Assembly (NCBI RefSeq): GCF_030695035.1
Contig: NZ_JAUYTT010000014.1
Location: 1 to 64,000 of the forward strand
Length of the DNA: 64,000 bases
Direction of reading: 5' to 3'
Source: Frigidibacter sp.
GTDB lineage: Bacteria > Pseudomonadota > Alphaproteobacteria > Rhodobacterales > Rhodobacteraceae
Below, in pieces: positions 42,520 through 61,597 of the stretch; position 1 is the first letter of the stretch; each line of letters begins with the position of its first letter. The notes beneath the pieces were generated by a model, which saw only the letters and a program-made list of their open reading frames with translations, was not told the origin of the DNA and searched no databases. The position numbers and the translations under genes are program-made.

Positions 42520-42523
<4 letters not shown>

Positions 42524-43623
42524 GCCTTGGCCTCTTGCAATGCGGGGGCGGGCTTCTTCTTGCGGGCGAAGGTCTCCTCGATCAGGCCAAGCACGCCCTT
42601 GGGCAGGAACAGGGTGACGAGGATGAAGAGCCCGCCGAGGGCGAAGAGCCAAAATTCGGGGAACCAGCCGGTGAAGAGGGTCTTGGCCAGCGCCACGAGG
42701 ATCGCGCCGAGGGCCGCGCCGACGAGCGTGCCGCGGCCGCCGAGGGCGACCCAGATCACGATCTCGATGGAGTTGGCGGGGCTGAATTCGCCGGGGTTGA
42801 TGATGCCGACCTGCGGGGTGTAGAGCGCGCCGGCGACGCCGGCCATCATGGCGGAGACGACGAAGATGAAGAGTTTGTAGCCTTCGACCCGATAGCCCAT
42901 GAAGCGGGTGCGGCTTTCGGCATCGCGGATGCAGACGAGGATCATCCCCAGTTTCGATGTGGTGATGGCGCGGGCGATCAGCAGGCCAAGGGCCAGAGCA
43001 ATCGCGGTGCAGACGAACAGCCCGGCGCGGGTGGCGTCGGACTGGATCGGGAAGCCAAGCACATCCTTGAAGTCGGTCAGGCCGTTATTGCCGCCAAAGC
43101 CCATCTCGTTGCGGAAGAAGGCGAGTTGCAGGGCGTAGGTCATCGCCTGGGTGATGATCGACAGGTAGACGCCGGTGACGCGGCTGCGGAAGGCGAACCA
43201 GCCGAAGAGGAAGGCCAGCGCGCCGGGGACCAGCATCACCATCAGCGAGGCGAACCAGAAATTGTCAAAGCCCATCCAGAACCACGGGAGTTCGTCCCAG
43301 CTGAGGAAGACCATGAAATCGGGCAGGTCGGGATTGGCATAGACGCCGCGGTCGCCGATCTCGCGCATCAGGTGCATTCCCATGGCGTAGCCGCCAAGGG
43401 CGAAGAAGGCGCCGTGACCGAGGCTGAGGATGCCGCAGAAGCCCCAGACCATATCCAGCGCCACCGCCAGCAGCGCGTAGCAAAGGTATTTGCCGAGCAA
43501 CGAGACGATGTAGCTGGGCACCACCTTGCCGTCGAAGGCGAGGTTGCCGATGGGCACGGCCACTGTCAGCACGAAGAGGCCGGCCAGGAAGATGCCCATG
43601 CGGCGGTCGATGAGAGAGGTCAT
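42520..43623 (-). CDS. urtC: Urea ABC transporter permease UrtC
   Basis: This 367-aa LivM-type inner-membrane permease has about nine hydrophobic segments and the family blocks VWGFCGILSLGHGAFFALGG and MGYRVEGYKLFIFVVSAMMAG. ATG 43623 has AAGGA upstream; the 504-aa track start extends through an unstructured Pro/Ala/Ser-rich out-of-frame stretch. A gap of 115 bp separates it from urtB. Confidence 0.93.
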
Positions 43624-43738
43624 GCGCTGGGGTCCTTTGGGGCGGGCTCGGCAGGCGGTGCAGGCGGCGGCGTCAGCAGGCCGGGCGGTAGCGGCATCGA
43701 CAGCAGCGAACGGCAGAGGGGAAATGCGGGCATCCGGG

Positions 43739-45334
43739 TCAGCCCTCGACCGCGCGGCCCTTGACGGCGAAGAGACCGCGGGGGCGTTTCTGGATGAAGA
43801 GGATGATGGCGACGAGCACGATGATCTTGGCCAGCACCGCGCCGGCATAGGGTTCCAGGAACTTGTTGACGATGCCGAGGCTAAAGGCGCCAGCCAGCGT
43901 GCCCCAGATATTGCCGGCGCCGCCGAAGACCACGACCATGAAACTGTCGACGATGTAGCTTTGGCCGAGGTTGGGGCTGACATTGTCGATCTGGCTGAGC
44001 GCGACGCCGGCGAGCCCGGCAATGCCGGCGCCAAGGCCGAAGGTCAGCGCATCGACCCAGTTGGTGCGGATGCCCATGCTGGCCGCCATCGGGCGGTTCT
44101 GGGTCACGGCGCGCATCTGCAGGCCGACGGCGGTGCGCTTCATCACGAAGAGCAGGACCGCGAAGACGGCGAGCGCGAAGATGAGGATCCAGAGCCGGTT
44201 CCAGGTGACGGTCATCTGCCCGACATCGAAGCTGCCCGACATCCAGGAGGGGTTGCCGACCTCGCGGTTGTTGGGGCCGAAGATCGAGCGGACGGATTGC
44301 TGCAGGATCAGGCTGACGCCCCAGGTGGCGAGCAGGGTTTCCAGCGCGCGGCCATAGAGGTGGCGGACGATGCCGCGCTCGATGGCGACGCCGACCGCGC
44401 CGGCGACGAGGAAGGCCAGCGGCGCCGCTATCAGCAGCGACCAGTCGAACAGGCCCGGCGCGTTCTGGCGGATGGTTTCCTGCACGGCATAGGTGGTGTA
44501 GGCGCCCAGCATCACCAGCTCGCCATGCGCCATGTTGATGACGCCCATCACGCCGAAGGTGATGGCGAGGCCGATAGCCGCGAGCAACAGGACGGAGCCG
44601 AGCGAGAGGCCGTACCAGATGTTCTGCGCCTGGCCCCAGAGCATCCGCGATTGCTCGATGGAGGCGAGGGCGGCGGCGGCAGCCTCGGCGATGTCGGGAT
44701 CTTCCGAGGCGGCAAAGGGGGTGAGGATGCGCTGGGCATCGGCATCGCCGCGATCGGCGATCACATCGATGGCCTCGCGCTTTTCGGCATCGGGAAAGTC
44801 GCCGTCGAGGATGGCGACGGCGCGGGCCTCTGCCAGGCGGGATTTGACGGCGGGGTTTTCCTCGCGCTGGAAGGCGGCGTCGAGGAGTTCGTATTGCGCG
44901 GCGTCGGGGGCGCGGAAGGCGGCATCGGCAGCGGCAAGGCGCTTGGCGGGGTCGGGGTCCGACAGGGTGAGGATGCCAAGCGCGGCGCGGATATCGCGGC
45001 GGAGCCCGTTGTTGACGCGGATGCGCTCGGCGGATGTGGCCTCGGCATCTGTCAGGGGCGTACCGGCCAGCGCATCGGCGGGGGCGGGGGCGAGGATCAC
45101 GACCTGGCCGGTGGTTTCGATGACGCCGAGGGCGCCGTCCAGCAGGGCGGTCAGGATCGCCTCGGCGCGCGGATCGCCGGTAAGGGCGATGGCGCCGACC
45201 ACGGCGCCGCGGGCAGAGTAGCTGCCTTCGGGCAGGCTGGTGACGAGAGCGTCAAAGTCTTGGGTTTGCGCCGAGGCGGGGGCGGCAAACATGGGCAGAA
45301 GCAGGGCCAGAAGACAGGCGCGCAGAAACAACAT
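43739..45334 (-). CDS. urtB: Urea ABC transporter permease UrtB
   Basis: This 531-aa permease has a signal-like N-terminus (MLFLRACLLALLLPMFAAPASA). A periplasmic helical extension of about 200 residues, characteristic of UrtB, follows, and then the LivH-type membrane core (ITFGVMGVINMAHGELVMLG). Start ATG 45334 is preferred over the TTG at 45340 used in the track. Two stem-loops in the 134-bp gap before it probably set its level below that of urtA. Confidence 0.92.
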   Translation of the reverse strand: MLFLRACLLALLLPMFAAPASAQTQDFDALVTSLPEGSYSARGAVVGAIALTGDPRAEAILTALLDGALGVIETTGQVVILAPAPADALAGTPLTDAEATSAERIRVNNGLRRDIRAALGILTLSDPDPAKRLAAADAAFRAPDAAQYELLDAAFQREENPAVKSRLAEARAVAILDGDFPDAEKREAIDVIADRGDADAQRILTPFAASEDPDIAEAAAAALASIEQSRMLWGQAQNIWYGLSLGSVLLLAAIGLAITFGVMGVINMAHGELVMLGAYTTYAVQETIRQNAPGLFDWSLLIAAPLAFLVAGAVGVAIERGIVRHLYGRALETLLATWGVSLILQQSVRSIFGPNNREVGNPSWMSGSFDVGQMTVTWNRLWILIFALAVFAVLLFVMKRTAVGLQMRAVTQNRPMAASMGIRTNWVDALTFGLGAGIAGLAGVALSQIDNVSPNLGQSYIVDSFMVVVFGGAGNIWGTLAGAFSLGIVNKFLEPYAGAVLAKIIVLVAIILFIQKRPRGLFAVKGRAVEG

Positions 45335-45375
45335 GGGCAAATCCGCCTTGAGGCCGGAAGGGGAGGGGCAGCGAC

Positions 45376-45456
45376 GGGCGGCGGGTCGTTACCGCGCCGC
45401 CCGCGACTGCGTATTCGTCGGGGCGCGACAACCGCCAACCGGCAGGTATCGCGCCC
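45376..45456 (-). promoter_or_regulatory. Two stem-loops in the urtA-urtB gap
   Basis: GGGCGGCG / CGCCGCCC (45376-45402, 11-nt loop) and GGGCGCGA / TCGCGCCC (45421-45456, 20-nt loop) are perfect 8-bp inverted repeats without U-runs. Such structures after binding-protein genes usually protect the upstream mRNA and reduce read-through. Confidence 0.55.
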
Positions 45457-45468
45457 CTGGTGCCTGCG

Positions 45469-46764
45469 TCAGTTGGAGGCGCCGCCGCAGGTCTTTGTCT
45501 CGGTGTTGTAGTTGCCGCATTTCAGCTCGACCCAGTCCGAGGTGAGCACGGCGCTTTCGGGCAGGAAGTCCGACCAGGCATCGCCCTCGACCAGACCATC
45601 GGTTTCCCAGACCACGTCGAACTGGCCGTCATCCTGGATCTCGCCGACCAGAACCGGCTTGGTGATGTGGTGGTTCGGCAGCATGATCGAGGTGCCGCCG
45701 GTCAGGTTGGGAACCTCGATGCCGGGCAGCGCGTCGATGACCGCGTCGGCGTCGGTTGTGCCGGCCGCCTCGACCGCCTTCACCCACATGTTGAAGCCGA
45801 TGTAATGGGCTTCCATCGGGTCGTTGGTCACGCGCTCTTCGCTGCCGATGAAGGTCTGCCACTTCTCGATGAACTCGGCATTCTCGGGGGTGTCGACCGA
45901 CATGAAGTAGTTCCAGGCGGCGAGGTGGCCGACCAGCGGGGTGGTATCAAGGCCGGCCAGCTCTTCCTCGCCGACCGAGAAGGCGACGACGGGGATGTCT
46001 TCAGCCGAGACGCCCTGGTTGCCGAGTTCCTTGTAGAACGGCACGTTGGCATCGCCGTTGATGGTGGAGACGACGGCGGTCTTCTTGCCGGCGGAGCCGA
46101 AGGTCTTGATGTCGGACACGATCGTCTGCCAGTCGGAATGGCCGAAGGGCGTGTAGTTGATCATGATGTCTTCGGGGGCGACGCCCTTGCCGATCAGGTA
46201 GGCCTCGAGGATCTTGTTGGTGGTGCGCGGGTAGACATAGTCGGTGCCGGCCAGCACCCAGCGTTCCACGCCTTCCTCGGCCATCAGATAATCCACGGCC
46301 GGGATCGCCTGCTGGTTCGGGGCGGCGCCGGTGTAGAAGACGTTCTTCTGGCTTTCCTCGCCTTCATACTGCACCGGGTAGAACAGGATCGAGTTCAGCT
46401 CTTCGAACACCGGCAGCACCGATTTGCGCGAGACCGAGGTCCAGCAGCCGAAAACCACATCGACGCCGTTCGCCTCGATCAGCTCGCGCGCCTTTTCGGC
46501 AAAGAGCGGCCAGTCGGAGGCTGGGTCGACCACGACGGCCTCCAGCATCTTGCCGTTGATGCCGCCCTTCTTGTTCTGCTCGTCGATCAGCATCAGCATC
46601 ACGTCTTTGAGCGTGGTTTCCGAGATCGCCATCGTGCCGGACAGCGAGTGGAGGACGCCCACCTTGATGGTGTCATCCTGCGCGATGGCCGCGGTGGACA
46701 GCAGCAGCGAGGCAATGCCCGCCTTGAAAAGTGTCTTGGCCTTGAAGGTCATGACGGTCTTCAT
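45469..46764 (-). CDS. urtA: Urea ABC transporter substrate-binding protein UrtA
   Basis: This periplasmic binding protein (431 aa from ATG 46764) is the first gene of the urt operon. A signal peptide (KTLFKAGIASLLLSTAAIAQ) precedes a LivJ-type fold; family blocks include VGVLHSLSGTMAISE and FGCWTSVSRKSVLPVFEE. The 473-aa track start is upstream of the ribosome site. AGAGGG abuts ATG 46764, so ATG 46752, with that site 12 nt upstream, is a real alternative. No urease genes are in the window. Confidence 0.93.
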   Translation of the reverse strand: MKTVMTFKAKTLFKAGIASLLLSTAAIAQDDTIKVGVLHSLSGTMAISETTLKDVMLMLIDEQNKKGGINGKMLEAVVVDPASDWPLFAEKARELIEANGVDVVFGCWTSVSRKSVLPVFEELNSILFYPVQYEGEESQKNVFYTGAAPNQQAIPAVDYLMAEEGVERWVLAGTDYVYPRTTNKILEAYLIGKGVAPEDIMINYTPFGHSDWQTIVSDIKTFGSAGKKTAVVSTINGDANVPFYKELGNQGVSAEDIPVVAFSVGEEELAGLDTTPLVGHLAAWNYFMSVDTPENAEFIEKWQTFIGSEERVTNDPMEAHYIGFNMWVKAVEAAGTTDADAVIDALPGIEVPNLTGGTSIMLPNHHITKPVLVGEIQDDGQFDVVWETDGLVEGDAWSDFLPESAVLTSDWVELKCGNYNTETKTCGGASN

Positions 46765-46805
46765 CCCTCTTATGAATGGTGCGCAAGGACATGGCTTCCC
46801 CGCCG

Positions 46806-46826
46806 CCGGACTCCCCATGAGTCCGG
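46806..46826 (-). promoter_or_regulatory. Leader hairpin upstream of urtA
   Basis: CCGGACTC / GAGTCCGG is a perfect 8-bp stem with a 5-nt loop, 42 nt before the urtA start. No U-run follows, so it is not a plain terminator. It may be an operator or a translational control element. Confidence 0.45.
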
Positions 46827-47121
46827 GCGCCCCCGCGCCAATCGTTGTTGCATCTTGCGTGGTGCCGGTTCCCCGTTCCCCCCACCGCATCCCGTTGGGG
46901 CGCCTTGGCGGCCCCGGAGATCAGGTTTGCAACTGCGGCGCGGTGTGTGAACTCTGCGTATGCCGCGCCGGGGTGGGTTGTGTCGGATTTGTGGCGCGAG
47001 CCCGGAAATGCCGACTTTTTGTGCGAAGCTGTCGTCAAATTGTGCGGAAACCAGTTCGGCCATGCCGCAAAGCGACCGATTCGGGTCGAAGCACGACGGG
47101 TGCAGTGGAACAGTGCATTAC

Positions 47122-48084: not shown

Positions 48085-49146
48085 ATGCCGGTAACCCTTG
48101 CCTCTATCCCCGACCTTGCACGCCTTGGCGTCGATGCGATCATCGACGTCCGCTCCCCGGCCGAATATGCCGAGGATCATGTGCCGGGCGCGATCAGCCT
48201 GCCGGTGCTGGATGACGAAGAACGCGCCCGCGTCGGCACCATCTACAAGCAGCAATCGCCGTTTCTGGCGCGCAAGATCGGCGCGGCGCTGGTGGCGCGG
48301 AATGCCGCCGCGCATCTGGAAGGGGCGCTGGCGGACAAGGGCGGCGGTTGGCGGCCCTTGGTCTATTGCTGGCGCGGGGGGCAGCGGTCGGGATCGTTCT
48401 CAACCATCCTCGCGCAGGTGGGCTGGCGCAGCGACACAATCGTCGGCGGCTACAAGACCTGGCGGCGGCTGGTGGTGGACATCACCCACGATCTGCCCTT
48501 CACCGCGCCGGTGGTGGTGCTGGACGGCAATACCGGCAGCGCCAAGACCGAGGTGCTGGCCCGCGCGGCGGCGCGGGGGGCGCAGGTGATCGACCTCGAG
48601 GGGCTCGCGAACCATCGCGGGTCGCTGTTCGGGGCGATGCCGGGCGGGCAGCCTTCCCAAAAGGCGTTCGAGGGGCGGCTGGCGGTGGCGCTGGCGGGAA
48701 TCGACCCTGCGCGGCCGGTGCTGGTGGAGGCGGAGTCCAATCGCATCGGCCGGGTGACGGTGCCCAAGTCGCTGTGGCTGGCGATGGTGGCGGCGCCGCG
48801 GGTGACGATTGAGGCTCCGCTGGGGGCGCGGGCGGGCTATCTGGCGGCGGCCTATGCCGACCTGACGGCGGACGCGGCGGCGCTGGCCGCCGTGGTCGAC
48901 AAGCTGCGCCCCTTCCATGCCCGCGAGGTGATCGAGCGCTGGCAGGGGATGGCCGGGGCCGGCGCCTTCGCGCCGCTGGCGGGCGAGTTGATGGCCGCGC
49001 ATTACGACCCGCGCTATGGCAAGGGCCGCGCCAAGCATGGGCCGGAGCGGGAGCGGGTGGTGCAGGCCGCGGCGCTGGATTCCGAAGGGCTGGACCGGCT
49101 GACCGATGCGGTACTGGCGGCGGTGAGCGAGCTTATTCCACGATAA
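48085..49146 (+). CDS. mnmH: tRNA 2-selenouridine synthase
   Basis: This enzyme (SelU/YbbB) replaces the sulfur of 2-thiouridine at the wobble position of certain tRNAs with selenium, via a geranylated intermediate, using selenophosphate. The 353-aa product has an N-terminal rhodanese domain with catalytic C95 in YCWRGGQRSGS and a P-loop GNTGSAKT (148-155). It is convergent with selD and overlaps it by 14 bp at the 3' ends. The pair accounts for selenophosphate production and use. Confidence 0.93.
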   Translation: MPVTLASIPDLARLGVDAIIDVRSPAEYAEDHVPGAISLPVLDDEERARVGTIYKQQSPFLARKIGAALVARNAAAHLEGALADKGGGWRPLVYCWRGGQRSGSFSTILAQVGWRSDTIVGGYKTWRRLVVDITHDLPFTAPVVVLDGNTGSAKTEVLARAAARGAQVIDLEGLANHRGSLFGAMPGGQPSQKAFEGRLAVALAGIDPARPVLVEAESNRIGRVTVPKSLWLAMVAAPRVTIEAPLGARAGYLAAAYADLTADAAALAAVVDKLRPFHAREVIERWQGMAGAGAFAPLAGELMAAHYDPRYGKGRAKHGPERERVVQAAALDSEGLDRLTDAVLAAVSELIPR

Positions 49147-51298
49147 GACAGGGCACGCCGGGCTCGATATAGCCGATGATCGCCGCCGGCTCCCCGGCCG
49201 CTTGCAAGGCTGCCAGCAGCGCCTCGGCCTGACCACCCGGCACCGCCGCCAGCAGGCCGCCCGCCGTCTGCGGATCGAACAGCAGATCGGCCTGCCAGCC
49301 CTTGGGGAAGACCATGCGCCCGGCCACCGCCCGGTTCATCGGCAGCAGGGTGGAGCCGTGGCCGGCCGCCGCCAGTGCTTCGGCCCCCGGCAGAACCGGC
49401 ACCGCGGCAAAGCTGATCCGGGCGGCGACATCCGAGGCTTCGAGCATTCCCACCAGATGCCCGGCCAGGCCGAAGCCGGTGACATCGGTCATCGCATGGG
49501 CATGGGGGGCCAGCAGCGCCGCCGCCGCGGCTTGCGGGCGGGCCATCTGCGCCAGCGCGCCCGCGACCACGGGGCCCGGGGCGGCGCACTGCATTTCCGC
49601 GGCCAGGATCACACCGGTGCCGATGGGCCGCGTCAGGATCAGCGCATCACCGGGGCGGGCGCCGGACTGGCCGATGGGCTCCGCCTCCGTCAGGCCGGTG
49701 ACGGTGAAGCCCACGGTCAGCTCTGCCCCAAGGCTGGTATGGCCGCCGACGATATCGGCCCCCGCCGCGCCGAAAGCCTCGGAGGCCGCGGCCATGATCT
49801 CGGCCAGGGTGCGGGCCTGCAGGTCGGGCGACATGCGCGGCAAGATCACCTGCGCCAGTGCGGCTTGCGGGCGCGCGCCCATGGCCCAGATATCGCCCAT
49901 GGCGTGATGGGCGGTGATCCGTGCCAGCAGCCACGGATCCTCGGTGAAGGCGCGCAGATGGTCGGTGGTGATGACCTGACTTGCGGCGCCATGGGCCAGC
50001 ACCGCCGCATCATCGCCGGGGCCCGAGAGGACATCGGCGCGGCGCGGGGCGGGAAGGCCCGCGAGGGCCGCGCGCAGATCGGCCTGCCCGACCTTGGCCC
50101 CGCACCCGCCGCAGAGCGGCTTGCCGCCAGCCAGCAGGTCGCTGACCCCGGCTGCCACCCGGGCCGGCACCGGCGGGGCGGGCATCGGCGGCAGGTTGTG
50201 GAACATCGCCATGAAGCGCCGGTCGATCCGGTCTTTCCAGTGCCAGAGCCAGGCCCCGTTCAACGGCAGGCCGAACTTGTCCGCCACCGCATGGCGGCTG
50301 CCGGCCGAGATGAGCTTGAGATAATCGCGTTGCGGGCGGTAGCTGCGCAGCCCGCGGCGGCCGGCCAGCACCTTGCGCAGGTTGTGCAGCAGGATCGGTG
50401 CCTCGCGCACCGCGAAGACCCCGGCCTTGGGACGGGGGGCGTGCGACAGATGGGCGATATCGCCGGCGGCGAAGATCGCGGGGTCGGTGATGGATTGCAG
50501 GGTGGGGCCGACGGTGACGAAGCCGCCGGTCAGGTGCAGGCCGGTCTGGGCGAGCCAGCCTTGCGGTTGAGTACCCGCCGCGCCGAGGGTGAAGGCAGAC
50601 GGGACGCGGCGGCCATCGGCCAGCAGCACGGCATCCGGTTCGACCGAGGCGGCGGGGCTGCCGGTCAGCAGCGTGACCCCCAGCCGCTTTAGATGCGCCA
50701 GCAGCCGGGCGCGGGCCCCGGCCCCCAGCAGGGGCAGGGCCTGCGGGCCGGCCTCGATCAGTGTGACCTCGGCCCCCGGGCCAAGGCGGTGCGCGGCGGC
50801 GAGGGCCAGCTCCACCCCCGCCACGCCGGCGCCGATGACGGCGACCTGCCGCGGGCCTTTCTGCGCCGCGAACGCCTCCCACGCATCGGCGAAGGCATCC
50901 AGCGGTTTGGCCGGGTGGGCATGTTCGGCAAAGCCAGGCAGCGATGGCATGTCGGAGGTGATGCCGATGTCGAGGGAGCAGATGTCATAGCCGACCGGGG
51001 GACGGCCGGGCACAAGCACATGCCCTTTGGCGCGGTCGATCCCCTCGGCCCGGCCAAGAATCAGCCGCGCGCCGGCATGGCGGGCCAGTTGCACCAGATC
51101 CATCTGCAGCGCGGCGCGGGAGTAGTGCCCGGCGATATGGCCGGGCAGCATCCCCGAATAGGCGGCGCTCGGGTCCGGCGAGATCAGCGTGACGCGCACC
51201 CCGGGCAGCGGCTCCATCGCCCACATCCGCAGCACCAGCGCATGGGCATGGCCGCCGCCGATCAGCACGAGGTCACGGGTCAGGGGCAACAGTTGCAT
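49133..51298 (-). CDS. selD: Selenophosphate synthetase fused to an NADH-dehydrogenase-like flavoprotein
   Basis: This 721-aa two-enzyme fusion has an N-terminal FAD/NAD(P) oxidoreductase of the NDH-2 type (about residues 8-370; LVLIGGGHAHA and AVIGAGVAGVELA). The selenide, water dikinase (about 390-721) follows. The active-site loop reads L-C396-G-G-C399-G-A-K402; C399 and K402 align with C17 and K20 of E. coli SelD, so cysteine is used rather than selenocysteine. ATG 51298 starts right before the flavin motif. The oxidoreductase may supply selenide by reduction, by inference. No selA/selB is seen nearby. Confidence 0.93.
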   Translation of the reverse strand: MQLLPLTRDLVLIGGGHAHALVLRMWAMEPLPGVRVTLISPDPSAAYSGMLPGHIAGHYSRAALQMDLVQLARHAGARLILGRAEGIDRAKGHVLVPGRPPVGYDICSLDIGITSDMPSLPGFAEHAHPAKPLDAFADAWEAFAAQKGPRQVAVIGAGVAGVELALAAAHRLGPGAEVTLIEAGPQALPLLGAGARARLLAHLKRLGVTLLTGSPAASVEPDAVLLADGRRVPSAFTLGAAGTQPQGWLAQTGLHLTGGFVTVGPTLQSITDPAIFAAGDIAHLSHAPRPKAGVFAVREAPILLHNLRKVLAGRRGLRSYRPQRDYLKLISAGSRHAVADKFGLPLNGAWLWHWKDRIDRRFMAMFHNLPPMPAPPVPARVAAGVSDLLAGGKPLCGGCGAKVGQADLRAALAGLPAPRRADVLSGPGDDAAVLAHGAASQVITTDHLRAFTEDPWLLARITAHHAMGDIWAMGARPQAALAQVILPRMSPDLQARTLAEIMAAASEAFGAAGADIVGGHTSLGAELTVGFTVTGLTEAEPIGQSGARPGDALILTRPIGTGVILAAEMQCAAPGPVVAGALAQMARPQAAAAALLAPHAHAMTDVTGFGLAGHLVGMLEASDVAARISFAAVPVLPGAEALAAAGHGSTLLPMNRAVAGRMVFPKGWQADLLFDPQTAGGLLAAVPGGQAEALLAALQAAGEPAAIIGYIEPGVPCLIVE

Positions 51299-51453
51299 GA
51301 AAGGCTCCCGGTGGCGACGGCTCCCTTGCTGATACCGCCGATGCGGCCGGGGGGCAAAGCGCAAATCGGCACGGGGGGCGTGGCAGCCCCGGCAAGGCCG
51401 CGCCGTTTTCCCCTTGACGCCACAGCGCGGCTTCACTAGCAAGCGCCCCATTG

Positions 51454-52236: not shown

Positions 52237-53328
52237 CTAGTGCGGCCGCGCCGCGCCGGCCAGTCGCAGGGCGGCGGGGGCGAGGCGTTCCAGCGGCACC
52301 TCATCCTCGACTGCGCCCATGCGCATCGCCTCCTTCGGCATTCCATAGACGACGCAAGTGTCATGATCCTGGCCCAGCGTCCGGGCGCCGGCGTCGCGCA
52401 TTTCCTTCAGGCCCTTTGCGCCGTCATCGCCCATGCCCGTCATGATGATGCCGATGGCATTCCGCCCCGCATAGCGCGCGACCGACCGGAACAGCACATC
52501 GACCGAGGGGCGGTGGCGCGAGACCAGCGGGCCATCGCGCACCTCGACGCTGTAGGAGGCGCCACTGCGTTTGAGCAGGGTGTGCTTCGCGCCCGGCGCG
52601 ATCAGGGCATGGCCGCGCAGCAGCCGGTCGCCGTCGCGCGCTTCCTTGACGGTGACGCCGCATTCGCCGTCCAGCCGGCGGGCGAAGGCGGCGGTGAAGA
52701 GTTCCGGCATGTGCTGCACGATCACGATGGGCGGGCAGTCCAGCGGCATCTGGGTCAGGAACAGCTTCAACGCCTCGGTCCCGCCGGTGGAGGCGCCGAC
52801 GGCGATGATTATTTCGGTGGTCTTGATCATCGCGCCGACATTCGGGGGCGGCAGCACAGCATCGGCCGTCAGCTTCGCCTCGATCAGCCGCGGGCGCATC
52901 GCCGACAGGCGCGCCTGCGCTGCCGCCTTCACCGCGTCGCAGATCTCGATCCGGCTGTCTTCGAGGAAGCCCTTCACGCCCATCTGCGGCTTGCAGATCA
53001 CATCCACCGCGCCGGCGGCCAGCGCCGCCGCCAGCGTTTCGGTGTTGTCGCCGACCAGCGAGCTGCACATGACCACCGGGATCGGATGCTGGCTCATGAG
53101 CTTGCGCAGGAAGGTGACGCCGTCCATCCGCGGCATTTCCACGTCCAGCGTGATCACGTCTGGTTTTTCGGCGCGGATGCGCTGGGCGGCGACGAAGGGA
53201 TCGCCGGCTGTGCCCATCACCTCCAACTCGGGGTCGGAGGCGATGATCTCGGCCATCGCCTGCCGCACCACTGCGCTGTCATCGACGATCAGGACGCGAA
53301 GCTTGCGCGGCTTTGAAGGGTCCAACAT
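52237..53328 (-). CDS. cheB: Chemotaxis protein-glutamate methylesterase CheB
   Basis: This 363-aa response regulator demethylates and deamidates receptor glutamates for adaptation. The REC domain (about residues 10-130; LIVDDSAV, phospho-acceptor D62 in [11 protein letters not shown]) is followed by a linker and the CheB esterase. The esterase contains [11 protein letters not shown] (Ser), [15 protein letters not shown] (His) and [11 protein letters not shown] (Asp). It is the last gene of the operon, 4 bp after cheR. Confidence 0.96.
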
Positions 53329-53332
53329 GGAG

Positions 53333-54190
53333 TTACACCTTTTGATAAACCGAGGTCCGCACCTGCCGTAGGCCTGCAGGTGGCTCGGAGAGGCTTTCGG
53401 AATGGCCGGTCAGCAGATAGCCGCCGGTCCGCAGGCGGCCGAGGACATTGGCCACGGCGCGGCGCTGATCGTCGGGCCGAAAGTAGATCAGGACGTTGCG
53501 CAGGAAGGCGACATCCGCCGTCAGTGACATCCGCGGGTCGAGGTCCACCAGGTTTGCCCAGGCCAGCCGCGCGCGGCCGCGCAGTTCCGGCGCGATGCGG
53601 TAGAGGGTGCGGCCCTTCTGCGGCGCTGCGGAGCGCAGCAGCCAGGCCCGGCGCATCGGCTCGTCCAGGCCCGAGATCTCGTCCTCGGTGAACACGGCAT
53701 TGGCGGCGCGGCGCAGGATCTTGCGCGAGATGTCGGTGCCGACCAGGGCCCAACGCAATTCGCCGGGCTGCTTGGCCGCGAACGCGTCGAGGGTCATGCC
53801 CGCGCTCCACAGTTCCGAGCCCAGCGAGCAGGCCGCGCTCCAGACCGTCAGCGGGCGCTCGCGGCCCGCCCCTTGCGCGACCAGTGCGGGCAGGCCCTCG
53901 GCGGTGAGCCAGTCGTAATGGACCCGTTCGCGGAAGAAGCTGGTGGTGTGGGTGGTCAGCGCTTCGACAAGGCGCCGCGCCTCTTCATCGCCACCGGGGC
54001 CCTTGAGGCTGGCAAGATAGCTCTCGAAATCCCCGCAGCCGATCTCGCGCAGGCGGCGGCTGACGCGCATCTGGATGAAGTCGCGCTTGCTGGGGGCGAC
54101 GGCTATTCCGCCGATCTCGACCGCGATGGCGACCAGCGCCGCGGCAATATCGGGTGACAGATAGGGCGGTTCGGCAAGGGTGGGGGTCAT
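53333..54190 (-). CDS. cheR: Chemotaxis protein methyltransferase CheR
   Basis: This 285-aa SAM-dependent enzyme methylates receptor glutamates. It has an N-terminal helical domain, [10 protein letters not shown] (CheR signature), the SAM region [17 protein letters not shown] and FLRNVLIYF. The usual CheR site sequence C-S-x-G-E-E is here C-S-L-G-S-E, a small deviation. The start overlaps the upstream cheW stop (ATGA), and cheB follows after 4 bp. Confidence 0.95.
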
Positions 54191-54702
54191 GTGAAATCGA
54201 AGGGATCCTGGGCGTCCTTGCCGAACAGCTCGTCCAGCGCGAGCAGCAGCGTCAGGCGCCCCGCCACCCGCGAGACGCCGCGCAGGACCGAGGCATCCCA
54301 GCGGGTCAGGGCACTTGGCGCCGTCTCGATCTCGCCGTCATGGATCTCGACCACGCTCAGCACACGGTCGGCGATCACGCCGACGGCGATGGAGCCGCCC
54401 GCGCCGAACTCGAACACCACGATGCGGCCCTCCTCGACCTCGAGCCCGCCCCGCAGGCCGAGCCGCGCGGCCAGGTCGATCACGGCAATGCCCTCGCCGC
54501 GCACATCGATCATGCCCAGAAGGTCGGATGGCGCATTCGGAAGCCGGGCAATAGGCTGCAGATCCAGGATTTCGCGGACATGGGCCACCGCCACGGCGAA
54601 GACCTGCCCCGACAGCTCAAAGGTGACGTAGGTCTGCGGTTCGGCAGCGATCTCGGAGTCCTCGGGGGACCAGGGATCGGCCAGTGCGGCAGTTGCAGTC
54701 AT
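54187..54702 (-). CDS. cheW: Chemotaxis coupling protein CheW (second copy)
   Basis: This 171-aa CheW/SH3-like adaptor links receptors to CheA. Diagnostic segments are YVTFELSGQVFAVAVAHVREIL and the RGEGIAVIDLAARLGL core. It is divergent from the copy at 56610, so the array may use two couplers. It lies between mcp and cheR, overlapping cheR by 4 bp. Confidence 0.93.
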   Translation of the reverse strand: MTATAALADPWSPEDSEIAAEPQTYVTFELSGQVFAVAVAHVREILDLQPIARLPNAPSDLLGMIDVRGEGIAVIDLAARLGLRGGLEVEEGRIVVFEFGAGGSIAVGVIADRVLSVVEIHDGEIETAPSALTRWDASVLRGVSRVAGRLTLLLALDELFGKDAQDPFDFT

Positions 54703-54781: not shown

Positions 54782-56521
54782 TCAGTAGCGGACGAAGTCG
54801 GTGTCGGACATGTCGCCGCCCAGATCCAGCGCCACGCCGTTTGCCTTGCCGTTCATGCCTTGGGCGTGGCCGTTCATGCCGCCATTCATGCTGCCCGCTG
54901 CCGGGGCATGTGCTGCCGGCGCCGCCTTGCCGGCGCTGCGCTTGCTGCGGATATGGGCAACCGGCTTGGTGGTGCTTTTCGCCGGGGTCCGCGCCGCCGA
55001 CGCGCGGCGGGCATGATCGTCATCGCCCAAGCGGAAGAAGCTGATCACACCGCGCAGCTGCTCGGATTGCGAGGCCAGCTGTTCCGAGACGCTTGCGGCT
55101 TCGGTCGAGGCCGAGGCGTTCTGCTGGATCACGGTATCAAGCTCGCGGATCGCCTCGTTGATCTGCTCTGCGCCGACATTCTGCTCGCGCGTGGCGGCAC
55201 TGATCTCTTGCACAAGATCGGCGGTGCGCTGGATCGAGGGCACCAGCGCCGCCAGCATTTCGCCGGCCTTCTGGCTGACCTCGACGGTCTTGCCGGACAG
55301 CTCGCTGATTTCGCCGGCCGCCTGCTGGCTGCGCTCGGCCAGCTTGCGCACTTCCGAGGCGACCACGGCGAAGCCCTTGCCGTGCTGGCCGGCGCGTGCC
55401 GCTTCGACAGCCGCGTTGAGCGCCAGAAGGTCGGTCTGCCGGGCGATTTCCTGGATGATGTTGATCTTTTCGGCAATGGTCTTCATGGCGCGCACCGCCT
55501 CGTCCACGGCCTTTCCGCTGTCGGCGGCCTCTTTCGCCGACTGGGTCGCGATCTTCTCGGTCTGCGCGGCATTGTCGGCCGACTGGCGGATATTGGCTGA
55601 CATCTCCTCCATGCTGGCAGAGGCCTGCTCTGCCGCAGCCGCCTGTTCGGTCGAACCCTCGCTGAGCTGCTCTGCCGTCGCCGACATCGCCTGCGCTCCT
55701 TCGGCCACGCCATTCGCGCTGACATTGGCATTCGACATGACGTCGCGCAGCTTCAGGGTCATGGCGCGGGCCGCCGCCAGAAGGCTTTCGTCGTCGCCGT
55801 CGCGGACCTTGACCTCTATGGTCAGGTCGCCGGCGGCGATGGAGCGGATCACGCGCTGCGCATAATCCGGCTCGCCGCCGAGCGAGCGCAGGACGCTGCG
55901 GGTCAGGTAAACGGCCGTCGAAAGGCCGATGACGAGGGCGGCGGCGATCACGCCGAGCGCCAGCGTCCGCGCGCCAAAGTAGGTCGTATGCGCTTCTTCG
56001 CTAGCCGCCTCTCCACCCTGCACGTTCAGGTTCACCAATTCCGAAAGGTGCCCCGAGAACTCGTCAAAGAGCGTCTTGCTGTCGATCAGGGCGCGCGTGG
56101 CGGCTTCATTCTCATTCCGGCGCGAGAAGTCGAGGGTGCGCTTGGCGGCGTCGAGGTAGAGATCGAAGCTTCGCACGAAGGTGGCGTAAAGCGCGCGCTC
56201 CTGTTCCGACGAGATCAGCGCCTCGTAATCGGCGCGCAACGTGACAAGTGTGGCCTCGACCATGTCCAATTGTTTCTCGACCTCGCGCATCTGCGCGACA
56301 TCGGTGGTGATGACATGCTGGCTCTGCAGCACACGGAAATCCGACGTGGCCGTATTGAGCTTGTGGACCGTATCAATGCTCGGCATCCAGTTTGTCGTGA
56401 TCTCGGTCGTGCGATGGTCGATGGCGCCCATCTTCGTGATCGCCACGGCGCCGAGAGTGGCTATGAGCAGCAGGAGCGCGCCGAACGCGGCGGCGAATTT
56501 CGCCTTCAGGGAGACGGTCAC
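54782..56521 (-). CDS. Methyl-accepting chemotaxis protein
   Basis: This 579-aa transmembrane receptor has TM1 (about residues 9-29), a periplasmic four-helix-bundle-type sensor (about 30-185), TM2 (about 187-207), HAMP, and a long signalling hairpin. The tip (about 365-396) contains [14 protein letters not shown] and [16 protein letters not shown]. The C-terminus is an atypical basic, then Met-Asn-Gly-repeat tail (about 505-565) ending DTDFVRY rather than a CheR-docking pentapeptide. Ligand unknown. It is flanked by two cheW genes. Confidence 0.95.
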
Positions 56522-56609: not shown

Positions 56610-57158
56610 TCACGCTTGGGGTGGCCGTTCGTGGCCGGTCGAAGGATCTGGACGGAACAGGGTTTCGGTATCGAGGAGGATGACGAGGCCATCGCCGCGA
56701 TGGGCGACTCCCTTGACGAATTGCTCGGGCCAGCGGGCGCCGAGCTCTGGCACGGCTTCCAGCGCGGCAAGGTCGGCTTCGATGACCTCCTCCACTCCGT
56801 CGGCGAGAATGGCGAGGCGGGTCGGCGCGCCGCCGACCGGCAGCTCCAGCACGATCACCCTGGCCTCCGCACTGGACGTGGCGGGGGGCATCCGCAGCCG
56901 CTGACGCACATCGATGAGCGGGGCGATGGCGCCGCGGACGTTGATCAGCCCGGGCGCGAAGGCAGAGGCGTTGGGCACGCACGTGGCCGGGATCGGGTCG
57001 AGGATCTCGTGCACGGCGCTGACCGAAATGGCGAAAGCCTCGCCGGACAGGGTGAAGATCAGCACCATATCCGGGATGCCAGGCGGGCGGCGCAGTCCAT
57101 GCGCCGTCTCTGCGAGGGTCTTGGTCAGGGCGGTCTGTGGCAAGGCGGTCTCCTTCAT
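56610..57158 (-). CDS. cheW: Chemotaxis coupling protein CheW (first copy)
   Basis: This 182-aa CheW has an N-terminal extension of about 25 residues before the SH3-like core (LIFTLSGEAFAISVSAVHEIL, LINVRGAIAPLIDVRQRL). The start overlaps the cheA stop by 4 bp (ATGA). It bridges CheA and receptors; the second copy at 54187 follows the mcp gene. An 88-bp gap to mcp has no evident terminator. Confidence 0.93.
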   Translation of the reverse strand: MKETALPQTALTKTLAETAHGLRRPPGIPDMVLIFTLSGEAFAISVSAVHEILDPIPATCVPNASAFAPGLINVRGAIAPLIDVRQRLRMPPATSSAEARVIVLELPVGGAPTRLAILADGVEEVIEADLAALEAVPELGARWPEQFVKGVAHRGDGLVILLDTETLFRPDPSTGHERPPQA

Positions 57159-59149
57159 GCAACCGGGCGGATGGCGGCACGCTCGGCCTGCGCCCGGCGC
57201 GCGAGCATCGCGACATCGATGATGAGCGCCACGCCGCCATCGCCGAGGATCGTTGCCCCGGCAAAGCCCTGCACATCGCGGTGATAGACGCTGAGTGTCT
57301 TGATGACGGTCTGGTTCTGGCCAAGGATGTCATCGACCACGAGGCCGATGCGTGCGCCGTCCGCCTTGATGATGACCACCCGGCGCCGCGGCTCGGTGCT
57401 GGGCGGGCGGGAGAACACGTCATCGAGGTCGAGGAACGGAACGAGGTGCTCGCGGATCTGAAGGATGGTGCGGCCCGACTCGCGCCGCCGTTCGGCGACC
57501 TCCATCTCCACGCATTCCTCCACCACCGACAGCGGGATGACGAAAACCGCCTCGCCGAGACGCACCAGCAGCCCGTCGATGATCGCCAGCGTCACCGGCA
57601 GCCGCAGCGTCACGCGGGTGCCGCGCCCCGGATGCGACATCACCTCCACCGAGCCGCGCAAGGCGTCAACTGTGGAGCGGACCGCGTCCATCCCAACGCC
57701 ACGGCCAGATACCGAGGACAGCGCCTTTGCCGTCGAGAATCCCGGCGCGAAGATCAACTGGTGGAGTTCCGTCGTCGTGGGCTGTGCATCGGGGGCCAGC
57801 AGCCCGCGCTCCACCGCTTTGGCGCGGATTGCTTCGGCATCAAGGCCGGCGCCGTCATCCTCGATGGCGATCAGCACTTCGCCGCCCTCTTGCCGGGCGG
57901 ACAGGCGCACGGTGCCGCGGGCCGGTTTGCCTGCGGTGCGGCGGCGGTCGGCATCCTCCAGCCCGTGGTCCATGCTGTTCCGGATCATGTGCACCAGCGG
58001 TTCGGACAGGCGGTCGATGACGTTCTTGTCGATCTCGGTCTCGCCGCCTTCGGTGATCAGGGCAACGTCCTTGCTCAGTTCGGCAGAAAGATCGCGCACG
58101 ACGCGCCGGAACTTGCCGAACACCGCCTCGATCGGCATCATCCGCACCGACAGCGTGGCGTCTCGGAGGCCAGTCACCAGCCGCTCCACCTCCTCGGCCA
58201 CGCTTTCCAGCTCGGCATCCCCGCGGGCGCCAGCGATCTGGTTGAGCCGCGCCTGCACGATGACCAGCTCGCCAAGCTGATCCATGATCTCGTCGAGTTT
58301 CGCGGCGGGAACCCGAACGCTTTCACCGGGGGAATTGGCCGCGGGTCTGGCCGCCTGCCGCGCCGCGGGGGCTGCTACGGCTGCGGCGGCCTGAGCGTCA
58401 GCCGCGTCGCCGCCGATCTCTTCGATCTCCAGCAGGGCATCGTCGGCAAAGATGAACACCGCCTCGATGGCGCTGCGCGGCTTGTTGGTTTCCAGCGTGC
58501 ATCGCCAGGCGAGCAGGCATTCGTCGGCAGCCAGATCCTCGAGCGGTGGCACCGCCGAGACATCGACAGCCATGTCGATGGTGCCGAACCCGGCGAGTTC
58601 GGCCATCAGCAGGTCGGGCCGCATGCCGTTGCGCAGCGCGCTCGGCTCTGGCCGGAACAGGATCGACCAGCGCCGCATCCGCGCGATGCTGATCACGTTC
58701 GATGTGTCCGCATCGGGGGCTGCTGTGCCGCTCGGGGCCGCCTCGCCGGTGATGGCGGCAAGGCCGGCCAGCAGATCCGCCGCCTCTTGCCCCGCGGCCA
58801 GCTCATCCGCCGCGGGGCCGTCGCTGCCGCTGTCGAGCAGGGCTGTCATGTGGTCGCGGGCGCGCAGCGAGAGGTCGATCAGGCGCTGATCAATGGCCAG
58901 CCGCCCCTCGCGAACCCTGTCGAAGGCCTCTTCGAAATGATGGGTGAACTGCGCGAGGGTGCTGAACCCGAACATGGCGCCCGAGCCCTTGATCGTGTGC
59001 AAGGTGCGAAAGACGGCATCGACCTGAACCAGATCCATCTGGCCGGGCTCTGTTCCCCGCTCCAGATCCAGCAGCAGACCTTCGAGCCCCTCAAGCTGTT
59101 CGCGGGCTTCTTGCACAAAGGTGGCGATGGCGGGATTGATCTCTTCCAT
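57155..59149 (-). CDS. cheA: Chemotaxis histidine kinase CheA
   Basis: This 664-aa cytoplasmic kinase has an Hpt domain with phospho-acceptor H51 in LHTIKGSGAMFGF and a P2-like region. A dimerisation domain, ATPase domain (MIRNSMDHGLED, SAKALSSVSGRGVGMD) and a C-terminal CheW-like regulatory domain follow. It phosphorylates CheY and CheB when the array is active. It is 3 bp downstream of cheY and coupled to cheW. Confidence 0.96.
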   Translation of the reverse strand: MEEINPAIATFVQEAREQLEGLEGLLLDLERGTEPGQMDLVQVDAVFRTLHTIKGSGAMFGFSTLAQFTHHFEEAFDRVREGRLAIDQRLIDLSLRARDHMTALLDSGSDGPAADELAAGQEAADLLAGLAAITGEAAPSGTAAPDADTSNVISIARMRRWSILFRPEPSALRNGMRPDLLMAELAGFGTIDMAVDVSAVPPLEDLAADECLLAWRCTLETNKPRSAIEAVFIFADDALLEIEEIGGDAADAQAAAAVAAPAARQAARPAANSPGESVRVPAAKLDEIMDQLGELVIVQARLNQIAGARGDAELESVAEEVERLVTGLRDATLSVRMMPIEAVFGKFRRVVRDLSAELSKDVALITEGGETEIDKNVIDRLSEPLVHMIRNSMDHGLEDADRRRTAGKPARGTVRLSARQEGGEVLIAIEDDGAGLDAEAIRAKAVERGLLAPDAQPTTTELHQLIFAPGFSTAKALSSVSGRGVGMDAVRSTVDALRGSVEVMSHPGRGTRVTLRLPVTLAIIDGLLVRLGEAVFVIPLSVVEECVEMEVAERRRESGRTILQIREHLVPFLDLDDVFSRPPSTEPRRRVVIIKADGARIGLVVDDILGQNQTVIKTLSVYHRDVQGFAGATILGDGGVALIIDVAMLARRAQAERAAIRPVA

Positions 59150-59152
59150 GTC

Positions 59153-59518
59153 TCAGCCCGCCAGCTTCTTGGCCACGGCCACCAATGTGTCGGCGTCGAA
59201 CGGCTTGCTGATCCAGCCCGTCGCCCCGGCGGCCTTGCCCTCGGCCTTCATTTCCGGCTTCGTCTCGGTCGTCAGCATCACGATGGGGACGCCCGAGCCT
59301 TTCGGTTCGGCCCGAAGCTTGCGGATCATCTCGATGCCGTTCATCACCGGCATGTTCAGATCGGTGATCACGAGGCTGACGGCCTCGGACTTGAAGCGCG
59401 TCAGGCCCTCTGCCCCATCGGCGGCCCCGATGACGCGGTAGCCCTCCGGCTCCAACGTGAACGCGACCATGTCGCGGATCGCCTTGCTGTCATCTACAGT
59501 CAGAACGGTTCGGCTCAT
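59153..59518 (-). CDS. cheY: Chemotaxis response regulator CheY
   Basis: This is a 121-aa single REC domain. It has D9/D10 in TVDDSKAI, phospho-acceptor D53 in ITDLNMPVMNG, T83/T84 and K105 in WISKPFDAD. In alphaproteobacteria the cheY next to cheA may bind the motor or act as a phosphate sink. The Shine-Dalgarno GGAGA precedes the ATG. Confidence 0.95.
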   Translation of the reverse strand: MSRTVLTVDDSKAIRDMVAFTLEPEGYRVIGAADGAEGLTRFKSEAVSLVITDLNMPVMNGIEMIRKLRAEPKGSGVPIVMLTTETKPEMKAEGKAAGATGWISKPFDADTLVAVAKKLAG

Positions 59519-59577
59519 CAGGTTCTCCAGGAACGGCTTTCGAGATGTCAGACGACGGAAAGGGCTGCCGCGACGCG

Positions 59578-59841
59578 TCAGACGAGGGGAAGGCCTGCCG
59601 CAAGCGGACCGAAGCCGGCGAAAGCGCCGCGGTTTTCAAGAGAGCGCCGGGCGGCCTGCAAAAGCTGTATGGCTGGGGCCGTCGGGGGGGTGCTGGTCAG
59701 GTCCAGCATGACCGGCGCGTCCGGCCCTGACGCATCAAGTGACAGCAGCAGCGAGGCAAGTATCCCCGGGGCCGCCTGCACATCTGCATCGCCCTTTATC
59801 AGCCAGGAATCGCCGGCCATCGGTGCAATCGTGTCTGTCAT
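59578..59841 (-). CDS. STAS-domain protein opening the che operon
   Basis: This 87-aa protein has the STAS pattern: an initial strand (WLIKGDADVQAAPGILASLL), the central MLDLTSTPPTAPAIQLLQAA, and a C-terminal strand. The usual phospho-serine position is occupied by Thr (PTAPA). AAGGAG lies 7 nt before the ATG. Its position before cheY-cheA matches CheS of Sinorhizobium and CheX of Caulobacter, so it may bind CheA and tune CheY-P levels; that is inferred from position and size. Confidence 0.8.
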   Translation of the reverse strand: MTDTIAPMAGDSWLIKGDADVQAAPGILASLLLSLDASGPDAPVMLDLTSTPPTAPAIQLLQAARRSLENRGAFAGFGPLAAGLPLV

Positions 59842-59983
59842 GCCGCTCTCCTTTTGGCGCCATCTAGGCCTTGATTCCTTGAGAAGCGGATAACGGCGGC
59901 CCGGGTTCAGGGCACTGTCTGGCCGTTACGATTTCTTACCGTTTTCCGGGCGATGCTGCGGCCGTGGGACAGGTGCGGGATTC

Positions 59984-61597
59984 ATGAACATACAGATCAC
60001 CAGAACGGCCAGGGATGCGACGCAGGAGGTGCGCGCCGCATGTGGAGTGGCCTTCGAGGCACTTGCAGATCGTCTGGGTGACGTGCAGCGCGGGGTGGGT
60101 GGCCTGTTGCGGCAGACCAACGAATTGGCCGCGCTTCTCAACACAGACAGCACCGCGCCCGACCCTGCCGCCGCGGTGCTGGGTGCCGCGCGCGGGCTGA
60201 TCGATCTGCTTGGCACGGACGTGCCGGTCACCACGGGCTATGGGGCGGCGGCGGCCGAGGCGCGCGATGCCCTCAGCCGGATTGACGGCGAAGCCCGCGC
60301 GCTGGGCGCCGTGTCTTCGCTGACCCTGATCACGGCGCGGTCGTTGAATGCGCCGGGGCTGGAGGATTATATCCGCACCCTTCGCAGCTTTATCGAAGGC
60401 CTGGCCGCAGATGCGCGTGCCCTGGATGAAGGCGTCTGCGCCGTGACCGACAGCCGCCTGCAGGCGCGGGAGGCGGCTGCGCTGGCGCTTCGCGCGCTTA
60501 ACCAGTCGGTCGCCGCACTTGACGCCAGTGACCCGTCGGCCAACGAAACGGCGTGCGAGACCGCCGCCTTGCGAACCCGCCTGGCGGGCGAGGCGCGGGA
60601 CGCGGCCGACACCGCCCGGCGTGAGACCAAGGCGCTGATCGCGGGCGTTCAGTTCGCAGACGAGTTCGCGCAGCGCCTGGCACATGTGGAGACGATTCTG
60701 GATGATGGGGGCCCGGGAACCCGCGCCCTCGCAGCGGTTCAGATCACCGCCATCGCCGAGGATGCCGAGGGCGTCTGCGACGCGGCAGAGGGCGCGCTGG
60801 ACCGGCTTGAATTGCTGGGCGGCCAGCTCAGGGCCGGCTTTGGCGAGGGCGGCGGCGAGGGGCCGGTTGCCATCGCGGTGCGCGCCCGGCGCGCCGCGAT
60901 GGAGGCGGCCCAGAGCCGGGAGGCCGAGATGGTTGCCGCGCTCGACAAGGTGGCGGCCGCCGCGGATGCGATCAGCGCCAGCATCGGCGCGGCCGAATCG
61001 CGCTTTGCTGGACTTGGGCGCAGCGCTGCTTCGATCAAACATGCCGCCATAAACGCAACGCTGCTGACCGCCCGCTCGGGGCCGGCCCGCGCGGCATTGG
61101 GCGTGCTGGCCGAGGCAGTCCATGCCAGCGCCGTTGTCGCGGGTCGCCAGTCGGTCGTGTGCCGCCGGGCGATCGGCAACCTGTCAGAGGGTTTCGACAG
61201 TGCCCGGGTCGCGGCCACGGTCGCCTCTGCGGCAGAGTTCCGCAACGCGATGGCCACCTGTGCCGGCGCGCTGGATACGGCGGATGCCGCGCTGTCCAGA
61301 CTGACGCAGATGCGCGACAGCGCCGCTGAGGCTGCCGCGATGCTGGTCGAGGCGGTGCGACGATGCCGGTCTGCCGTTGCGCGCGTTCGCGCCACGCAAG
61401 GGGACTTGCGGGCGATGGCGGTAGCGACCGCCCCGGCGGGGGCGGAGGATCTGACTGGACTGGGCCGTTTCGAGCCGATTTACACGATGGAGCGTGAGCG
61501 GATCGTCCACAGCGCCCTGACAGGCAGCTCTGCACCTTCGGCCGACGCCCCGCCAAAGCTGAGCGCGGAGGATGCGGCGGACTCGATCCTGTTCTGA
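59984..61597 (+). CDS. Helical protein with CheZ-like and degenerate receptor-tip motifs
   Basis: This 537-aa, Ala-rich, almost wholly helical soluble protein is transcribed divergently from the che operon. I see three informative parts. Residues 222-235 read VQFADEFAQRLAHV, with D226 and Q230 spaced as the catalytic D143/Q147 of CheZ. Residues 357-383 (NATLLTARSGPARAALGVLA...) resemble the MCP hairpin tip but lack its conserved glutamates. The C-terminus SAEDAADSILF recalls the CheY-binding tail of E. coli CheZ (DDLLDSLGF). There is no membrane segment or REC domain. A CheY-P phosphatase or array-associated factor is plausible but unproven. Confidence 0.75.
   Translation: MNIQITRTARDATQEVRAACGVAFEALADRLGDVQRGVGGLLRQTNELAALLNTDSTAPDPAAAVLGAARGLIDLLGTDVPVTTGYGAAAAEARDALSRIDGEARALGAVSSLTLITARSLNAPGLEDYIRTLRSFIEGLAADARALDEGVCAVTDSRLQAREAAALALRALNQSVAALDASDPSANETACETAALRTRLAGEARDAADTARRETKALIAGVQFADEFAQRLAHVETILDDGGPGTRALAAVQITAIAEDAEGVCDAAEGALDRLELLGGQLRAGFGEGGGEGPVAIAVRARRAAMEAAQSREAEMVAALDKVAAAADAISASIGAAESRFAGLGRSAASIKHAAINATLLTARSGPARAALGVLAEAVHASAVVAGRQSVVCRRAIGNLSEGFDSARVAATVASAAEFRNAMATCAGALDTADAALSRLTQMRDSAAEAAAMLVEAVRRCRSAVARVRATQGDLRAMAVATAPAGAEDLTGLGRFEPIYTMERERIVHSALTGSSAPSADAPPKLSAEDAADSILF

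Follow-up and report, generated by a model that had tools for sequence, protein, structure and literature searches.

Results

A chemotaxis operon and a divergent gene for a 537-aa protein

The window, by which we mean the whole stretch of 64,000 nucleotides of Frigidibacter sp. DNA that was analysed, contains a chemotaxis operon on the minus strand with the gene order cheY-cheA-cheW-mcp-cheW-cheR-cheB and, divergent from it, a gene encoding a 537-aa protein (Table 1). An earlier note, made from the letters of this DNA, had pointed out this open reading frame together with residues D226 and Q230 and the C-terminus EDAADSILF of its product; the frame is indeed open, and these features are present as described. 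The note had also stated that the che operon contains no cheC, cheX, cheD or second cheY, with which the cluster and Pfam searches of the genome agree. No cheD or second cheY was seen in the che cluster of the window, and no Pfam matches to CheZ, CheC or CheX (PF04509 and PF13690 for the latter two) were obtained anywhere in the window's genome.

The 537-aa protein has no chemotaxis-family match in Pfam or NCBIfam. It does not match the CheZ model of Pfam even at E 10, nor the MCPsignal model (PF00015), nor those of CheC/CheX, and a phmmer search of the PDB with the single protein returned nothing. Elsewhere in the window, as far as can be read from the sequence, a tRNA 2-selenouridine synthase-like ORF adjoins an ORF resembling a selenophosphate synthetase-oxidoreductase fusion (48085-51451), and the ORFs at 42520-46890 resemble the binding protein and permeases of a urea/branched-chain amino acid ABC transporter.

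Table 1. Features of the che locus and of the 537-aa protein gene (window coordinates).
Feature	Position	Strand	Evidence
Gene for the 537-aa tandem MCP-hairpin/CheZ-like protein, proposed CheY-P phosphatase	59984..61597	+	ORF, homologues, AlphaFold model (pLDDT 82.4)
First degenerate MCP-like hairpin tip, residues 106-140	60299..60403	+	Turn at 120-124 in model; N-half/C-half hhalign match
Q223-x-x-D226-x-x-x-Q230-R231, CheZ-like catalytic motif	60650..60676	+	Invariant in 105/105, exposed helix face, aligned with CheZ active site
Second degenerate MCP hairpin tip, residues 351-383, N357 invariant	61034..61132	+	Profile against MCP structures; turn at 364-366 in model
Y-T-M-x-x-E-R-x-V-H motif, residues 500-509, diagnostic of the family	61481..61510	+	DNA pattern in 20/298 genomes
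Acidic-hydrophobic tail EDAADSILF, residues 529-537, proposed CheY-binding helix	61568..61594	+	99/106 members vs 20/793 control ORFs
Intergenic region between divergent cheY and 537-aa protein gene	59519..59983	.	Gene coordinates
cheY, proposed substrate	59153..59518	-	Response-regulator receiver matches; same operon or adjacent in relatives
cheA	57155..59149	-	NCBIfam CheA match, E 2e-121; query of operon census
cheW	56610..57158	-	Position and conservation in operon type
mcp	54782..56521	-	NCBIfam MCP matches
cheW, second copy	54187..54702	-	Position and conservation in operon type
cheR	53333..54190	-	Position and conservation in operon type
cheB	52237..53328	-	NCBIfam CheB match, E 7e-129

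The scaffold is derived from chemoreceptor hairpins

AlphaFold2, run with 15 relatives, predicted two long hairpins in one chain, with turns near residues 122 and 365 (mean pLDDT 82.4, pTM 0.58). The N-terminal and C-terminal halves match each other: hhalign gave E-values of 2e-10 in one run and 7e-9 in the other, while the controls reached about 6e-5 (reversed) and 1e-3 or worse (block-shuffled). The MCP origin of the scaffold is seen in the profile of the window family (A3), whose best PDB matches are MCPs, with 2ch7 aligning to the second hairpin at E 1.7e-19, and some relatives (L029, L250) pass the Pfam MCPsignal cut-off. A resemblance of residues 357-383 to the MCP hairpin tip, put at about 10 of 27 positions in the earlier note, is present, the number of positions identical to the MCP of the operon being 9 of 27. 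Foldseek, queried with both models, found nothing but generic helical matches in the PDB, which were not counted as support.

The Asn at the tip of MCPs (N357) is invariant, and the tip Glu of MCPs is gone across the whole family. Moreover, the 537-aa protein contains no methylation consensus, and the MCP encoded in the operon contains two. Taken together, the scaffold comes from a receptor, and the protein is unlikely to be a normal receptor. It may sit in, or cap, the chemoreceptor array, as the earlier note suggested; the MCP profile match of the second hairpin and the invariant N357 speak for this, and the loss of the tip Glu speaks against it.

The D-x-x-x-Q site, the tail and a second motif are conserved among divergent relatives

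One relative of the 537-aa protein is found in the same genus (87% identity), and other relatives from the same family share 25-27% identity. A first genome scan with the 537-aa protein as single query yielded no relatives. Because single-protein searches were unproductive, profiles were needed together with a DNA pattern for Y-T-M-x-x-E-R-x-[VIL]-H, by which further relatives were gathered. This pattern matches 20 of 298 Rhodobacteraceae genomes (reversed control, 0), and all 21 ORFs identified with it contain Q-x-x-D-x-x-x-Q-R some 270-280 residues upstream as well as an acidic-hydrophobic end. Since these members were collected via the YTM motif, its conservation is partly by construction; that of the D/Q site and the tail is not. 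Class-wide searches with profiles A1 and A2 returned mostly ordinary MCPs, through the second hairpin, and their counts were therefore left out of the family counts. Named relatives are also present in Devosia, Jiella, Fulvimarina, Desulfovibrio, Solidesulfovibrio, Syntrophobacteraceae, Bryobacterales, SAR324 and Nitrospira.

The sequence D-x-x-x-Q occurs twice in the 537-aa protein, and at least as many occurrences are found in 22% of composition shuffles. As the count alone is at chance level, conservation is the deciding question. The conservation set consisted of 105 distinct full-length relatives, many of them at 14-25% identity. Residues Q223, D226 and Q230 are invariant in all 105, as are N357, Y500, E505 and R506, and H509 is present in 104. 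When 28 sequences that share 13-87% identity with the 537-aa protein are compared, the columns without variation are those of Q223, D226, Q230, R231, N357, Y500, E505, R506 and H509; only about nine of the 537 columns reach such conservation. The motif YTMxxERxVH (residues 500-509), overlooked in the earlier note, is thus as conserved as Q223/D226/Q230. The one sequence without an apparent D/Q site turned out to be a short MCP fusion that had been wrongly aligned among the long relatives.

Residues 223, 226, 230 and 234 (H234) share one side of the helix, turned 139-179 degrees away from the hydrophobic moment, and this D/Q face is predicted to be solvent-exposed. By a simple rule, 99 of 106 members have the tail type; of the 793 remaining long ORFs at these loci, 20 have it. 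The earlier note had made its proposal depend on the conservation of D226, Q230 and the tail and on the placement of Q230; its phosphatase part survives, as D226, Q230 and the tail are conserved even in very distant relatives and the D/Q face is predicted to be exposed. A few members (L212, L260, L319 and L342) keep D-x-x-x-Q and miss the usual tail, which could be due to sequence errors, frameshifts or real loss.

The gene is linked to one type of che operon

Operons were censused by CheA alone, after which the neighbourhoods of selected loci, picked from a longer list and not a random sample, were analysed. Type A operons have the order cheY-cheA-cheW-(mcp)-cheW-cheR-cheB, and a 537-aa-type gene accompanies 8 of the 8 that are complete on their contig, a count that excludes two loci cut by contig ends (L209 and L218). 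The gene is absent from a partial operon lacking cheY and cheB (L216). Type B operons have the order cheY-cheA-cheW-cheR, usually followed by another cheY, and none of the 24 contains a 537-aa-type gene. The gene does occur at one intermediate operon (L217), in which there is no second cheY, and a copy is present near two type-B clusters that were reached via the gene itself (L152 and L153). In genome G381 the whole operon, including the 537-aa-type gene, is present in two copies (L144 and L145).

The co-occurrence with a particular che operon, which the earlier note had proposed to check, is therefore observed: the protein is tied to one operon type, and this type lacks a second cheY. The pattern fits the possibility, which we infer from it, that the 537-aa-type gene does the job of the second CheY of type B. 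The genome of the window contains one operon of each type, the type B operon (G000:C6:107500-126000; L225) being cheY-cheA-cheW-cheR-cheY without a 537-aa-type gene. As this second che operon has its own second cheY, other phosphate sinks exist in the window's genome.

CheZ scores above the Pfam cut-off in 68 of 190 sampled genomes of the same class, so that the earlier note went too far in stating a general lack of CheZ in alphaproteobacteria. No CheZ was found in any of the 24 Rhodobacteraceae genomes that carry the long form.

Shorter relatives connect the family with CheZ

Besides the long form there are short relatives in which LQFQDRxKQRLEH and a tail with the ending I-[ED]-L-F come after a real MCPsignal domain. 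They are mostly encoded beside cheY in che clusters, and the window family matches them with an hhalign E-value of 8e-19. Five loci (L009, L014, L019, L020 and L032) encode such MCP-domain proteins with the CheZ-like LQFQDRxKQRLEH and an acidic I-E-L-F tail. The genomes of these five also have classic CheZ matches, and hence the fusion protein does not replace CheZ there.

The Nitrospira relative is a protein of about 190 aa that combines MQFQDITRQKLEHV, YTMEEERRLH and DSVTLF, and its gene is located directly upstream of cheY-cheA. Standalone CheZ-like proteins of this size are encoded at Nitrospira loci L251, L263, L270, L279, L289 and similar ones; at L251 and L289 the gene comes after a motB-like ORF. 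The standalone proteins lack the MCP hairpin tip. They match the CheZ model of Pfam at E 2e-4 (16-22 bits, under the cut-off of 30.7) and Phos_CheZ of NCBIfam at E 1e-4. When their profile was compared with an alignment of 24 CheZ proteins, hhalign gave a probability of 95.6 and an E-value of 1.1e-8 over 91 columns. The best PDB match of this profile is 1kmi, CheZ, at D143/Q147, with an E-value of 1.6 that is not significant alone. A paper on Nitrospira lists a cheZ gene (PMC5596200), which may be this standalone form.

The sequence bridges from the window family to CheZ run through these proteins. In comparisons restricted to the motif window, hhalign gave E 1e-10 for the window family against Nitrospira and E 3e-8 for Nitrospira against CheZ. 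The window family compared directly with CheZ gave E 9e-5. Among the controls of these motif-window comparisons were six block-shuffled versions of CheZ, one of which still reached 88%. With full profiles the match between A3 and CheZ is weak (probability 23, E 9e-4, 39 columns), the reversed and block-shuffled controls being weaker than the real comparison, and we do not count this match as proof. On these alignments, the motif helix of the window family is likely to be homologous to that of CheZ through intermediates.

Discussion

CheZ of E. coli dephosphorylates CheY-P via D143 and Q147, which form a D-x-x-x-Q motif, and its C-terminal helix, ...DDLLDSLGF, binds CheY. For many alphaproteobacterial systems without CheZ, the usual account of how the signal ends is that a second CheY acts as a phosphate sink. 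We think that the 537-aa protein is probably a CheZ-type CheY-P phosphatase built on a single-chain scaffold of two tandem degenerate chemoreceptor hairpins. A phosphatase had already been suggested in the earlier note, and the conserved D/Q site and tail, the exposed face, the operon co-occurrence and the bridges to CheZ via shorter relatives argue for it; catalysis itself, and the adjacent cheY as source of the substrate, are what we infer from these. For chemotaxis systems of this type, it would probably be the "off switch" that had been missing.

In the proposed mechanism, the acidic-hydrophobic C-terminal helix would dock on phosphorylated CheY. Q230, assisted by D226 on the exposed face of the descending helix of the first repeat, would then enter the active site of CheY, where Q230 would position water for dephosphorylation, like Q147 and D143 in E. 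coli CheZ. In this way, signal termination would be supplied to the cheY-cheA-cheW-mcp-cheW-cheR-cheB operon, which is without CheZ, CheC, CheX or a second CheY. There are two hairpins per chain and the motif is kept in the first only, and the protein would therefore be akin to a two-hairpin CheZ dimer that is covalently joined and half-active.

Alternatively, the protein might be a component of the array that binds CheY and has no phosphatase activity, a receptor-like scaffold or decoy that uses its tail to keep CheY-P close to the array and in which D-x-x-x-Q is a protein contact. The homology to MCP hairpins, the invariance of the tip residue N357, the CheY-binding-like tail and the linkage to cheY would all suit such a component. 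We nevertheless consider it improbable, because the invariant Q-x-x-D-x-x-x-Q has the catalytic spacing of CheZ and is common to the Nitrospira relatives, which are CheZ-sized and not MCPs.

Less probable still, and in our view quite unlikely, is a soluble degenerate chemoreceptor that feeds CheA and in which the Q-x-x-D-x-x-x-Q helix is a methylation helix, the substrate site of CheR/CheB. The motif lies 113 residues past the aligned tip of the first repeat, a spacing that we take to be near that of the second methylation helix of MCPs, going by the tip-to-site distance of Tsr. However, the motif does not form an E/Q pair, the MCP tip Glu is missing from the whole family, the standalone relatives have no hairpin tip at all, and Q-x-x-D-x-x-x-Q was rejected as a methylation site because the methylation consensus is found twice in the MCP of the operon and nowhere in the 537-aa protein. 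Finally, an ordinary decayed MCP paralogue that resembles CheZ by chance, for which the frequency of D-x-x-x-Q in shuffled sequences and the weak direct match to the CheZ profile could be quoted, is hardly credible, since the site, the tail and the YTM motif stay invariant across 105 divergent sequences and synteny is conserved, which excludes chance decay.

If the 537-aa protein is indeed a CheZ-type phosphatase, it gives a distinct operon type a direct phosphatase, for which particular residues (Q223, D226, Q230), the tail and a diagnostic motif can be named, and point mutants in these residues make the question of signal termination testable. YTMxxERxVH plus D-x-x-x-Q provides an annotation signature for proteins not identified as CheZ by the models of Pfam and NCBIfam used here. 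The relatives also provide intermediate sequences between chemoreceptors and CheZ, and the evolutionary origin of CheZ is, to our knowledge, unclear. A broader proposal, to which we give an even chance, is that together the relatives form an undescribed, widespread branch of CheY-P phosphatases that occurs standalone and CheZ-sized, behind a real MCP hairpin, or as a tandem pseudo-dimer of MCP hairpins in which one repeat is catalytic and a single tail docks on CheY, and that serves operons without a second CheY. If true, the existence of tandem, fused and standalone forms suggests that CheZ and chemoreceptors share, or have exchanged, a coiled-coil scaffold.

CheZ-type phosphatases are a known function class. 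In the literature searched, with subscription papers outside its scope, neither the family itself nor any receptor-derived or tandem form turned up. CheT of S. meliloti and A. fabrum is an alphaproteobacterial DXXXQ protein with a CheZ-like predicted fold that dephosphorylates one CheY, and so provides a precedent for a phosphatase among such proteins (PMC12654446). However, CheT belongs to another operon type, with cheD, cheS and two cheY genes, and it is set apart by its description, in which receptor hairpins and the YTM motif do not appear (PMC12654446). The CheC/CheX phosphatases share the proposed role, dephosphorylation of CheY-P, but are of another fold family without a match in the 537-aa protein or its genome.

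With MCPs (PF00015, 2ch7), the 537-aa protein has in common the second hairpin, which aligns to MCP structures, and the invariant tip Asn, and some relatives exceed the Pfam cut-off; it differs from them in having two hairpins per chain and in lacking the Pfam match, the tip Glu and the methylation consensus. The likeness to CheZ (PF04344, 1kmi) consists of D-x-x-x-Q on an exposed helix, the acidic-hydrophobic tail, a gene near cheY and predicted helical hairpins, and the standalone Nitrospira relatives are of CheZ size with weak matches to CheZ models. In contrast to CheZ, the 537-aa protein is made up of tandem MCP-like hairpins without a Pfam CheZ match, the conserved Q of its family is located at -3 of the D instead of -1, YTMxxERxVH is added, and each chain, with its two hairpins, has a single active site and a single tail.
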